22,495 bases of DNA. It comes from a virus. The notes under the pieces are model-generated. The model ran no database searches, was not told the DNA's origin, and saw nothing but the letters and a program-made list of their open reading frames with translations. Below are positions 4,148 through 9,125 of this stretch, one piece after another (position 1 is the stretch's first letter; each line of letters starts with the position of its first letter). The translations under genes and the position numbers were made by a program. The stretch is from the IMG/VR virus record IMGVR_UViG_3300022200_004149, positions 1 to 22,495 of that record. One strand, written 5' to 3'.

Positions 4148-5095
4148 TTATAAATACATTGCCAATAATGGATCTTGGACTCTTTTTGTTAATTCTTGGA
4201 TATCTGCATCTGTCATGTCGCCAATATCCTTGAATCTTTGTGGTAATCCCACAACTGTTGCGCGATCTTTCATTCTATTAACAATCTTGTCAGTTAATGT
4301 CCTTCCAGCATCATCGTTATCTGGAATAACTATAACATTATTAAAGTATTTTGTCAATAGGTCTAATTGAAACTTTGAAATATATACCCCCAAAGTTGCT
4401 ATGGCTGGTACACCACACTGATCTAGACGAATAGCATCAAAGGAAGACTCTACGATATAGACAGAATCATGTCTCTTGGCACGGTGTAGATTAAACAGCA
4501 CCTTGGACTTTGGAAGACCATTCGTGTTTCTAAAATCTTTCCCCTCAACGCTTCTGCCAATGAACCCTACATAGAGGCTTCCATCAGGATTCTGGACTGG
4601 AATGGTTACCATGTCCTGATTCTCACTGAATCCTAAAGAAAACTTTTCCATAGAAGATCTACTAATCCTTCTACCCTCAAAGTATGATGTTGCTCTAGGA
4701 GATTCCAAGGCTTGATTATTTAATCTCTTTATCATAACCTCATCAAATGGAATATACTCTTGCTTCTCTTCAAGCATCTTATCCACACTGTCTATAATAT
4801 TGGTACTCACCTTGGCAGAGTCAATAACTCTTCCTACTTCAAAGAATGATTTTTTCGTAAGGTGCATCAATAGTTCAGTTAGATTACGGGATTCGTGGCA
4901 TGAGAAACAAAAGAATGTGCCATGCTCTTTGCTTACCTCTCCTGCTGGAGTTCTGTAGTTTGCATGGTAGGGACAAAAGATAATATAGTCTGAGTCTACC
5001 TCATTCTCAATCTTTACCCCTGAGATTGCAAGGACTCGTCTGACTTGTTCTGGCGAGTATATATCGGTCTGTTCTTGTCTAGTCCGTCGATACAT
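4148..5095 (-). CDS. dnaG: DnaG-type DNA primase (CHC2 zinc finger plus TOPRIM)
   Basis: A compact primase of 315 residues. The CHC2 zinc site is C41-P-Y-H44 with C63-F-S-C66. The catalytic core includes GFIGRSVEGKDFRN (177-190) and then TOPRIM: the acidic residue E216 in VYIVESSFDA, and PDNDDAGR (258-265), which matches the DxD-x-AGR element with D259 and D261. Bacterial DnaG is about 600 residues. This one lacks the long C-terminal helicase-binding domain, ending soon after KDIGD (289-293). The ATG at 5095 is the only good start; upstream there is only a weak AGGAAAGAAG. The first 82 nt overlap the preceding gene, so translation may be coupled. It makes RNA primers for the DnaB-like helicase and DnaE replisome encoded nearby. 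Confidence 0.92.
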   Translation of the reverse strand: MYRRTRQEQTDIYSPEQVRRVLAISGVKIENEVDSDYIIFCPYHANYRTPAGEVSKEHGTFFCFSCHESRNLTELLMHLTKKSFFEVGRVIDSAKVSTNIIDSVDKMLEEKQEYIPFDEVMIKRLNNQALESPRATSYFEGRRISRSSMEKFSLGFSENQDMVTIPVQNPDGSLYVGFIGRSVEGKDFRNTNGLPKSKVLFNLHRAKRHDSVYIVESSFDAIRLDQCGVPAIATLGVYISKFQLDLLTKYFNNVIVIPDNDDAGRTLTDKIVNRMKDRATVVGLPQRFKDIGDMTDADIQELTKRVQDPLLAMYL

Positions 5096-5331
5096 GCGGC
5101 ATTCTTCTTTCCTATATATGATCCGTATACGCTTAATATAAATTCGTAGTAGTTACCTGTATATGATAGCGACCAATCTGGCTCTATGTCAAATCTGACG
5201 ACATAGCCCTCATCTCTCATGGAGTCAGATAAAAGTCTGATATATTCTTGCTTCATGCGTGGAATAAATCGGTCATCGTGTATCTGACCGTCTAAGGAGA
5301 ACCTCTTTATTTTTTTATGCATGAAACTCAT
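5014..5331 (-). CDS. Small conserved-looking replication-module protein of unknown function
   Basis: A protein of 105 residues, function not recognised. Notable segments are IHDDRFIPRMKQEY (17-30), MRDEGYVVRFDIEPDW (38-53) and a C-terminal beta-like YEFILSVYGSYIGKKNA. From memory, actinophages encode short proteins with the same layout (a GYVPxLDL-like strand, then a YxFxLxxxGVYVG-like strand), so I treat it as real. No signal peptide, membrane segment or cysteine motif is seen. It overlaps the primase by 82 nt. The ATG at 5331 lacks a Shine-Dalgarno sequence, and a perfect TATAAT sits 6 nt before it, pointing to a leaderless message. An ATG at codon 4 is an alternative start. Confidence 0.72.
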   Translation of the reverse strand: MSFMHKKIKRFSLDGQIHDDRFIPRMKQEYIRLLSDSMRDEGYVVRFDIEPDWSLSYTGNYYEFILSVYGSYIGKKNAACIDGLDKNRPIYTRQNKSDESLQSQG

Positions 5332-5337
5332 GGATTA

Positions 5338-5343
5338 ATTATA
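5338..5343 (-). promoter_or_regulatory. Candidate leaderless promoter, -10 box of the 105-residue gene
   Basis: TATAAT, then TAATCC, then ATG. The A of the start codon is the seventh nucleotide after the box, where transcription is expected to begin, and there is no ribosome binding site. A TTGACA lies further upstream (5374-5369), but 25 nt of spacing is too long for a normal pair. The region 5332-5415 otherwise holds nothing I can name. Confidence 0.5.
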
Positions 5344-5415
5344 CATGAATCAATCACAAATGCATCTTTGTCAAATATACAAGTTTTCACTTGGGATCAA
5401 TGGGGGATAAACCTT

Positions 5416-5982
5416 CTACCGCGACTCAATAAAAAGGTATGATGTGATTACATAAAGTCCATTATTATCTACGTCCTTATTGTTTACACTGACCTCAGAT
5501 AGACCCAAGTAGTAGGATGATGGGAAGATAACGGTCATATTGTTGTCAATCTTCTGCTCATAAGCAATGTCTCCACCAATCTGTAGGGTAAGATCTCCCC
5601 CATCAAACTCTTTTGGATCGTTAAAGACAAAGGTAATAATTGTAAATGCAGCAGAGTCATAGTGTAGTAGTGAGGACTGGCCATCTCCGAAGTACCTAAT
5701 CTGAGTTGAGTGATTATTTACTGAATCATATATCCCATACATTGAGTTTGTGTGAATTAGATTCTCAACCACCTCAGGAGAAAAGAATGTCTCCATTGAG
5801 TTATTGTGTATCGGAGATATCTCTAAATCCTTGTACATGTCCAAAAGCCACACGCCATCTGGACCTTGGCACTTTTCTGTAAATTGATGAACTTCATTAA
5901 GGATGTTTGATAATTCCTTTTCACTAAAGGTTTCTTTAATCACTAGAGCATCAAATGGCTCTGCCAGTCTTTCAAAAATCAT
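5416..5982 (-). CDS. 2OG-Fe(II) oxygenase-like protein with a degenerate active site
   Basis: A protein of 188 residues with the outline of a prolyl-4-hydroxylase/2OG-Fe(II) dioxygenase double-stranded beta helix. The proximal iron ligands are present as H107-Y-D109 in SSLLHYDSAAFTIITFVF. FDGGDL (126-131) matches the conserved GG-E/D-L turn, and VIFPSSYYLGLSEV (151-164) matches the FPS strand that normally carries the distal histidine. That histidine aligns with L159, and the arginine that usually binds 2-oxoglutarate (GxR) is also missing in GLYVITSYLF. It may have altered chemistry, be non-catalytic, or be a look-alike fold. The ATG at 5982 has AAGGAGA 5 nt upstream, 29 nt after the helicase stop. 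Its position among replication genes hints at nucleotide or DNA modification, but that is only inference. Confidence 0.6.
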   Translation of the reverse strand: MIFERLAEPFDALVIKETFSEKELSNILNEVHQFTEKCQGPDGVWLLDMYKDLEISPIHNNSMETFFSPEVVENLIHTNSMYGIYDSVNNHSTQIRYFGDGQSSLLHYDSAAFTIITFVFNDPKEFDGGDLTLQIGGDIAYEQKIDNNMTVIFPSSYYLGLSEVSVNNKDVDNNGLYVITSYLFIESR

Positions 5983-6011
5983 TCCATTCTCCTTTATTAG
6001 TTGTTGTTATC

Positions 6012-7223
6012 TTATTCAAAATCTTTGTAGATAAATCTACCAGAGTCAAAGTCTACCTGAACCATAAACTCTCCAAGAAAGCCATTACGATTCTTTCTAA
6101 ATACCGCCTCAAGAACATCGCTGTTAGGGGCACGACCAAGGGCTAGAAGCCAGTCTGCATCGTAAGCAATCTGGCGTGACCAAGAAGTCTGTCCAAGAGT
6201 TGGAACACTATTCATGTCCGTAATATCGTCTGGGGTTGCAGAAGAGATTGCGACAATGGGAATTTGTTCAGAGATAGCCAGCAACTTTAGTTCACGACTA
6301 AGGTTTTTCATCTTAACAACCTCGTTATCAGTCCTAGTATTACTAGTCATCAAGTTAAGGTAATCAACAAAAACAATGTCTGGTCTGTACTGATCAATCT
6401 TTCCACGCAACACGCTTGGACTCACCTCACCAATTCCCTCATTAGAAATGATGTGAATGCTTGGCTTACCCTCAAAGGTCTTTGTCATCCACTTCTTCAT
6501 CATGTCTGTCTCAACATCTCCACGAGAGAGTTTTCTGTGACTCCATACCCCTTGACCAAGAATAGTAAAGACGCGATTCCTTACCTCTGTCTCAGTCATT
6601 TCTAGAGAAACAATCAGGGGGGACTTGCCATTCCTCCAAGCCTGAACAGCAAGGTAGAGAGCCATCCAAGATTTACCAATAGCAGGATAAGCAAGGAGAA
6701 CGCCTAACTGTCCAGGAGTAATTCCTGCTGGCATGTAGTTGTCAAATCCTGCCAGACCTGTGTAGATTCCGTGTGTTCCACTATCCTGTAGTCGCTTGAT
6801 GTTCTCAAAGTAGGCAATAGCATCATCCACATTGGATACGTCTAGATCTCTTGCTGTGGAAGTAATGTGCTTTAGCCTTGCTGTCTCTGACATAAGACCT
6901 TCAAGTGCTGATATAGAATCTCCATCTTGCACTGATGATGCTGCTGACCTGAGCATAACCTTCACATTATCATTAAGAAACTCTGTACGCAACTCATCAA
7001 TGTGATGCTTTGTTGCGCCAGTCTCCGCAACATAATCAAAGTCTGGGAACCTCTGCTTAACAATGTTGAGGGGAGGAACAGTTTGGTTTTGCTCATAATA
7101 GGATCTAACGAAATCCCAAATGTCCGTATGAGTCCTTAGCATTGCCCCCACGTTTGCCTGTAGCAAAACATGCATCTGCTTATCATTTAATACTGCCGAT
7201 AGGGTCTTAGCCTCAAGATTCAT
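6012..7223 (-). CDS. dnaB: DnaB-type replicative DNA helicase
   Basis: A 403-residue RecA-fold hexameric helicase, shorter than bacterial DnaB (about 450-470). The N-terminal 120 residues are helical. A DnaB-like linker follows, IYTGLAGFDNYMPAGITPGQL (153-173), leading to a Walker A of AYPAIGKS (178-185), in which the first glycine is alanine. SLEM (206-209) holds the likely catalytic glutamate E208, and DIVFVDYLNLM (282-292) is Walker B with D287. FRKNRNG (375-381) matches the DnaB K-x-R-N-G motif near the arginine finger. It should unwind DNA ahead of the polymerase and recruit the primase. The ATG at 7223 has AAGGA about 10 nt upstream and overlaps the previous gene by 11 nt. Confidence 0.93.
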   Translation of the reverse strand: MNLEAKTLSAVLNDKQMHVLLQANVGAMLRTHTDIWDFVRSYYEQNQTVPPLNIVKQRFPDFDYVAETGATKHHIDELRTEFLNDNVKVMLRSAASSVQDGDSISALEGLMSETARLKHITSTARDLDVSNVDDAIAYFENIKRLQDSGTHGIYTGLAGFDNYMPAGITPGQLGVLLAYPAIGKSWMALYLAVQAWRNGKSPLIVSLEMTETEVRNRVFTILGQGVWSHRKLSRGDVETDMMKKWMTKTFEGKPSIHIISNEGIGEVSPSVLRGKIDQYRPDIVFVDYLNLMTSNTRTDNEVVKMKNLSRELKLLAISEQIPIVAISSATPDDITDMNSVPTLGQTSWSRQIAYDADWLLALGRAPNSDVLEAVFRKNRNGFLGEFMVQVDFDSGRFIYKDFE

Positions 7224-8684: not shown

Positions 8685-9125
8685 TGTTGGTATGCCGATT
8701 GCGGTGATATTAACAGTTGTGGTTACTTGACCAGACTTATTAAACTTAACAACGCCTTCGATTCGTGAAGTAGTAATTGATCTAATGACTACGGTAACGT
8801 CATCGCCAATGTCTGAAGCGCCACGATTAACTACCGTGGCAGTTGCTACAGGTGGATACTTAAAGTCAGAAGCGTAGGAAAAGGAAAAGGGTCTGGTAGT
8901 TCCTGCTGTAACGCTTTCGTTATTAACAATGTCTACATATCCAGCAATAATTCTTGCTGCTCTAGTCTGAATGACCTGATTGCCAGCATCCCTTGTGGAT
9001 ACCGTAGTGTAGTTATAGGTTGCTGAAGAGATCTCGTTTGATACTTCGTTGATAGCGTTAGCAATCTGATAGATGTAAGTAACGTCTAGTGGTTGTCCAC
9101 GATCTGGAAGAGGAATTTTTGCCAT
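8682..9125 (-). CDS. Small beta-rich tail or adhesin-like protein
   Basis: A 147-residue protein. A helical N-terminus (MAKIPLPDRGQPLD start, then YIYQIANAINEVSNEI) is followed by a beta-rich body. Residues 84-147 (ASDFKYPPV onwards) run as alternating strands: P-P-V-ATATV, DDVTVVIRSITTS, IEGVVKFNK, TTTVNITAIG. This loosely recalls the small beta-sandwich of H-type lectins and similar phage attachment proteins, where F-x-x-P-P-V starts the domain and an A-I-G strand closes it. It is the last of the tail genes, so a receptor-binding or fibre-tip part is plausible. There is no Shine-Dalgarno site; an extended -10 lies 6 nt before the ATG, suggesting its own leaderless message. Function remains uncertain. 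Confidence 0.7.
   Translation of the reverse strand: MAKIPLPDRGQPLDVTYIYQIANAINEVSNEISSATYNYTTVSTRDAGNQVIQTRAARIIAGYVDIVNNESVTAGTTRPFSFSYASDFKYPPVATATVVNRGASDIGDDVTVVIRSITTSRIEGVVKFNKSGQVTTTVNITAIGIPT

Follow-up and report, generated by a model that had tools for sequence, protein, structure and literature searches.

A degenerate 2OG-Fe(II) oxygenase-like protein, probably retained for binding, in an accessory slot behind a phage helicase

Between the helicase and primase genes of an uncultured tailed phage lies a gene for a protein that resembles 2-oxoglutarate (2OG)-Fe(II) oxygenases but has lost part of their cofactor site. Is its product an enzyme with altered chemistry, a gene in decay, or an oxygenase scaffold that has been kept for some other role?

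The gene and the fold of its product

The window, by which we mean the whole stretch of DNA analysed, is a tailed-phage fragment of 22,495 bases from an IMG/VR record. A further IMG/VR contig (L001) matches it without a difference across 10,215 bases, which makes an assembly-specific base error unlikely, though both contigs may share one population. The helicase and primase have actinophages as their nearest isolate relatives (35-38% identity), and a scan of genome contigs found no relatives of the oxygenase-like protein, so no host is named. The genes concerned are as follows:

6012..7223, minus strand, DnaB-like replicative helicase, upstream neighbour (phrog_19, E 8e-60)
5989..5994, minus strand, Shine-Dalgarno-like AAGGAG ahead of the oxygenase-like gene's ATG, read from the sequence
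5416..5982, minus strand, putative pseudo-2OG-Fe(II) oxygenase gene, 188 aa (ORF call, Pfam and PHROGs matches, structure model)
5014..5331, minus strand, phrog_17515 gene, function unassigned, downstream neighbour (E 9.7e-24)
4148..5095, minus strand, DNA primase (phrog_47, E 5.6e-52)

The first 82 bases of the primase ORF overlap the phrog_17515 gene in a different reading frame (window 5014-5095), an overlap that is also present in two related phages discussed below, L015 (100 bases) and L007.

The sole Pfam match of the protein is PF13640, at 17.5 bits against a gathering cut-off of 27 bits, but homology to the 2OG-Fe(II) oxygenases stands despite this sub-threshold score because the PHROGs family of these enzymes, phrog_61, matches at E 3.7e-6. 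A tblastn search matched 124 phage records, nearly all of them cyanophages, with full-length cases at 22-28% identity. The AlphaFold2 model (pLDDT 90.8, pTM 0.89; input alignment of 14 relatives) finds prolyl hydroxylases as its best PDB matches, namely Pseudomonas putida PPHD (Z 16.5) and PHD2 (Z ~16), followed by Shewanella 3dkq (Z 16.0) and vCPH (Z 15.3), and cyanophage 2OG oxygenases top the list when a viral structure library is searched with the same model. The homologous protein of L015 also models confidently (pLDDT 92.0) and matches prolyl hydroxylases at Z 16.5. Structure prediction and fold search thus bear out the double-stranded beta-helix (DSBH) that an earlier note had proposed from the letters of the sequence, and the fold is predicted to be of the prolyl-hydroxylase type.

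Cofactor residues and selection

The motif was examined in an alignment of 25 rows, which on thinning at 80% identity left 18 canonical relatives, for the most part 2OG-Fe(II) oxygenases of cyanophages and uncultured phages. All 18 of these non-redundant sequences carry H-x-D...H...R in the same columns, and in the full 25-row alignment this motif is broken only in the window protein (with its twin in L001) and in L015, wherever the sequence covers the columns. The ligand columns are secure, as there are hardly any gaps in the alignment near H107 and L159. The codons concerned, all assigned by alignment, are:

5671..5673, minus strand, S104; the column is Tyr in 18/18 canonical relatives
5662..5664, minus strand, H107, proximal iron ligand, kept in the window; Arg in L015
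5656..5658, minus strand, D109, the sole iron ligand common to both degenerate proteins
5506..5508, minus strand, L159, distal iron-His column; His in all other relatives including L015
5455..5457, minus strand, L176, column of the Arg for 2-oxoglutarate; L015 has Ile here and every other relative Arg

The facial triad HxD/E...H is therefore incomplete in the window protein, where Leu replaces the distal His, and the late-strand Arg/Lys for the C5 carboxylate of 2OG is absent, being replaced by L176 (Ile in L015). The earlier note had reported that H107 and D109 survive in HYD alongside the GGD turn and the FPS strand, and that the distal His and the Arg are gone; comparison with the canonical relatives agrees on each count, with the two ligands in LLHYD, the turn at 128-130 and the strand at 153-155. 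A shifted His or Arg is rejected, since the relatives carry both residues in the same columns. To these losses we add that of the invariant Tyr at S104, which had escaped that first reading. A Fe(II)/2OG halogenase, in which both His are kept and the Asp/Glu becomes Ala or Gly, can also be rejected, because here the Asp is kept and one His is lost in each degenerate protein.

Across the 18 canonical relatives 12 columns are invariant, five of them linked to the cofactors (Y104, H107, D109, H159 and R176), where Y104 is presumed to belong by analogy with the PHD2 Tyr at position -3 from the proximal His. The other seven are E30, G128, G129, N148, F153, P154 and V161. H107 and D109 survive in the window protein, D109 and H159 in L015, and the Tyr and Arg in neither, so that only 1/5 cofactor columns is retained by both degenerate proteins; of the remaining invariants both keep 6/7, the exception being V161, which is Leu in each. 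The difference in retention gives a Fisher p of 0.07 for residues kept by both proteins and 0.03 when pooled per protein, suggestive rather than strong evidence that cofactor residues were lost selectively while the scaffold was spared.

The L015 protein (IMGVR_UViG_3300037295_000153) is 51% identical to the window protein, and its gene has the same neighbours, helicase before and phrog_17515 after. At the proximal site LLHYD in the window corresponds to GLRDD in L015, and at the distal site YYLGLSEV corresponds to YYHSLSEV. The His losses are thus reciprocal, the window lacking the distal ligand and L015 the proximal one (Arg instead), and D109 is the only shared ligand. This bears on whether the site has been re-purposed, with D109 and further residues (H107 in the window, H159 in L015, or H59/H91) supporting a different reaction that needs no 2-oxoglutarate. 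Such a site would draw on the Asp kept by both proteins, the one His left in each, and H59 and H91, which are common to the pair and absent in L007. Had the pair evolved a new cofactor site in common, one would expect the same ligands in both, yet the clade has no conserved pair of metal ligands, and the 2OG Arg and pocket Tyr are gone from both proteins. H59 and H91 may serve as replacement ligands, but in the window model H91 opens a strand 16 residues ahead of H107 and H59 lies in an N-terminal helix, neither of them evidently close to the original site. The case for a new chemistry common to both proteins is thereby weakened, and we regard a re-purposed site as unlikely. A metal site drifting independently on a conserved scaffold is the pattern expected of a pseudoenzyme, and the earlier note, which had offered either a new cofactor use or a structural role, appears to have been nearer the mark with the second; a structural or binding role is the likelier half.

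Loss of catalytic residues could equally mark a gene without a selected role, functionless accessory cargo heading for deletion. The patchy distribution of the gene described below would suit such decay, as would its faster change relative to its neighbours, with the oxygenase-like proteins of the window and L015 at 51% identity against 67-85% for the helicase, primase, phrog_17515 product and SSB. The substitution pattern argues otherwise. Between the two genes NG86 gives a dN of 0.45 and a dS of 2.88, hence a dN/dS of ~0.16 that is rough since dS is saturated, and the frame has stayed open in both phages at this synonymous saturation. The scaffold residues are intact, the fold is confidently predicted and the ribosome-binding site is kept. 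Decay therefore seems improbable to us.

Some oxygenases with unusual triads are active, which counts against reading the protein as a pseudo-oxygenase. The window protein might still work as a canonical 2OG oxygenase if H107, D109 and a water or nearby residue held the iron and another basic residue held the 2OG, and its intact fold would permit this. However, the distal His and the Arg, invariant in the canonical relatives, are missing, L015 has dispensed with the proximal His instead, and the Pfam score lies under the family cut-off, so retained canonical activity is very hard to credit. Just as improbable in our judgement is a heteromeric arrangement, in which the protein would regulate an active 2OG oxygenase encoded elsewhere in the phage or its host. 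It has precedents in cyanophage 2OG genes, which often adjoin other 2OG genes, and in OGFOD1, which pairs a catalytic with a non-catalytic DSBH domain (PMC4396695), but neither the window nor the L015 record (48.6 kb), both of which are fragments, yielded a second PF13640, PF13759 or A1-type gene.

A maximum-likelihood tree groups the window protein with L015 in a clade with 100/100 support, whose stem is 1.43 changes per site long. Its sister is the canonical protein of L007 (IMGVR_UViG_3300047548_000106; 93/87), which has a full HRD...H...R motif and occupies the same slot, and L094 follows (88/82). The tree is best explained by a single acquisition in the slot, after which one branch lost catalysis. 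Separate acquisitions of oxygenase genes in the slot are conceivable, given that helicase identity is equal among the window, L015 and L007 phages (77-78%). Scans of viral contigs with the window protein, L015 and the alignments, together with a DMYKDLE DNA pattern, yielded only L001 and L015 as further degenerate members, so that the clade is known from two sequences, that of the window (with its twin L001) and that of L015. As to degeneracy as a general habit of phage paralogues, the adjacent cyanophage paralogues inspected diverged too far for the motif scan to align them and gave no rate.

An accessory slot behind the helicase

The earlier note had placed the gene in the core replication operon, between helicase and primase. 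The position holds, though the small phrog_17515 gene intervenes before the primase; the core operon does not. We compared 67 distinct helicase-phrog_17515 junctions, and in the window two features define the interval:

5344..6011, minus strand, accessory insertion slot, from the helicase stop to the -10 element of the phrog_17515 gene (67 junctions compared)
5338..5343, minus strand, TATAAT (-10-like), 6 nt ahead of the phrog_17515 ATG, conserved in relatives (from the sequence)

The junction is short or empty in 52/67 relatives, 51 of which measure 21-123 bases; the other is L006, where the helicase (L006:5528-6744) is split into two overlapping frames, probably by an assembly or sequencing frameshift, with nothing inserted. 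L006 was accordingly rejected as a cargo-bearing junction and counted as empty. Cargo is present in the other 15/67 junctions, and the window-type 2OG family in three of these (window, L015 and L007). A core replication role for the oxygenase-like gene is rejected, as the slot is usually empty.

The cargo is varied. Endonuclease VII-like proteins occur in L007 and L018 by Pfam match and in L025 and L030 by sequence similarity, and L036 carries a PF13759-type 2OG oxygenase. Two genes past the latter (L036:5304-6729) a protein opens with a short collagen-like GPQGPAGPAGG, and the two may form an enzyme-substrate pair. The L079 slot (L079:3853-6728) holds four genes within the replication region, of which one codes for a fibre protein with collagen repeats and another for a PA14/GLEYA protein; pairs of small, beta-rich-looking cargo proteins may be virion or fibre parts. 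In L075 (L075:4995-6738) one ORF is putatively endonuclease-like and another, judged by eye, shows DNA-methylase-like motifs (DPPF).

TATAAT stands 6-8 bases before the phrog_17515 ATG, both in the window and in the majority of the relatives inspected, empty sites included. In relatives the element before phrog_17515 often reads TGTATAAT, and in the window TATAAT is also found within 6-8 bases of the ATG of a second gene, upstream at 9125 (minus strand), an arrangement resembling leaderless transcription. These sequence features suggest that transcription of the helicase unit ends with the slot, and that a separate, probably leaderless start serves phrog_17515 and the primase, which would explain why insertions are tolerated there. 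As the slot is accessory and lies upstream of the promoter-like element that separates it from the primase genes, the position of the oxygenase-like gene is no argument for a function in replication.

A binding role and comparison with known systems

Taken together, our data make it reasonably probable that the protein is a phage pseudo-oxygenase, its scaffold kept, that works by binding and carries out no oxygenase chemistry. In this scenario an ancestor of the phage group would have held a canonical 2OG-Fe(II) oxygenase of the cyanophage-related phrog_61/PF13640 kind in the slot after the helicase, a form still visible in L007. On the line to the window and L015 the 2-oxoglutarate Arg, the pocket Tyr and one iron His would then have been lost, a different His in each, while the beta-helix scaffold would have stayed under purifying selection. 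Most likely, then, oxygenase chemistry is gone and the protein acts by binding. Its former substrate groove, or the surface around it, would hold a phage or host molecule (peptide, protein or nucleic acid), and the protein would serve as decoy, scaffold or inhibitor. We infer the loss of activity, the order of the losses and the binding function from the computed fold, residue losses, motif in relatives, slot and selection. The protein is homologous to active enzymes, has lost their cofactor residues and keeps its frame under selection, as a pseudoenzyme would, with activity itself presumably lost. A more specific version, in which a clade whose two members each dropped a different iron His now binds a ligand or host protein, possibly as a dominant-negative decoy for the substrate of a host or rival-phage 2OG oxygenase, is put forward only tentatively.

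Multiple 2OG-Fe(II) oxygenase genes are common in cyanomyoviruses (14/16 genomes), for which roles in DNA repair and 2OG control have been proposed and whose substrates are unsettled (PMC3037559). The family is thus already known and the new element is a free-standing pseudo member of it, with confidence limited by the two sequences available; a keyword search of the open-access literature found no paper on a phage 2OG pseudoenzyme, a weak absence. If the protein is kept without its cofactor residues, selection in the phage 2OG family would act partly for binding and not for oxygenation, and the inactive form, used as bait, could expose the substrate of phage 2OG oxygenases. It also cautions that not every phage 2OG-oxygenase homologue should be counted as an auxiliary metabolic gene.

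The T4-like cyanophage phrog_61/PF13640 oxygenases (ACG-2014d, Syn30, S-H38 and others) are full-length homologues of the window protein with the same fold (22-28% identity), and share with it the GGD turn, the NNxxxIFPS strand and the final strand. They differ in keeping HxD...H...R and the Tyr at column 104, whereas the window protein lacks the distal His, Arg and Tyr, and in lying elsewhere in cyanophage genomes than in the slot after a DnaB-like helicase. The nearest canonical sister, that of L007, shares the slot and 30% identity, but has the full motif, is ~20 residues longer in its N-terminal region and adjoins an endonuclease VII gene. The HIF-type and bacterial prolyl hydroxylases (PPHD 4j25, PHD2, PiuC/Sbal_3634 3dkq and vCPH 5c5t) match the window model at Z 15-16.5 over 149-174 residues, but these are active enzymes with the full ligand set and only 9-17% sequence identity to it. 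The closest functional parallels are oxygenase folds without a working metal site that have binding or scaffold roles, such as the C-terminal domain of OGFOD1/Tpa1p, whose yeast relatives bind Nro1 and Ett1 (PMC4396695), and JARID2, which has a structural role in PRC2, with Epe1 as a further case of a non-enzymatic role (PMC7192584). OGFOD1/Tpa1p and JARID2 are eukaryotic and the domains belong to larger proteins, whereas the phage protein is a free-standing domain of 188 aa for which a binding role is predicted.
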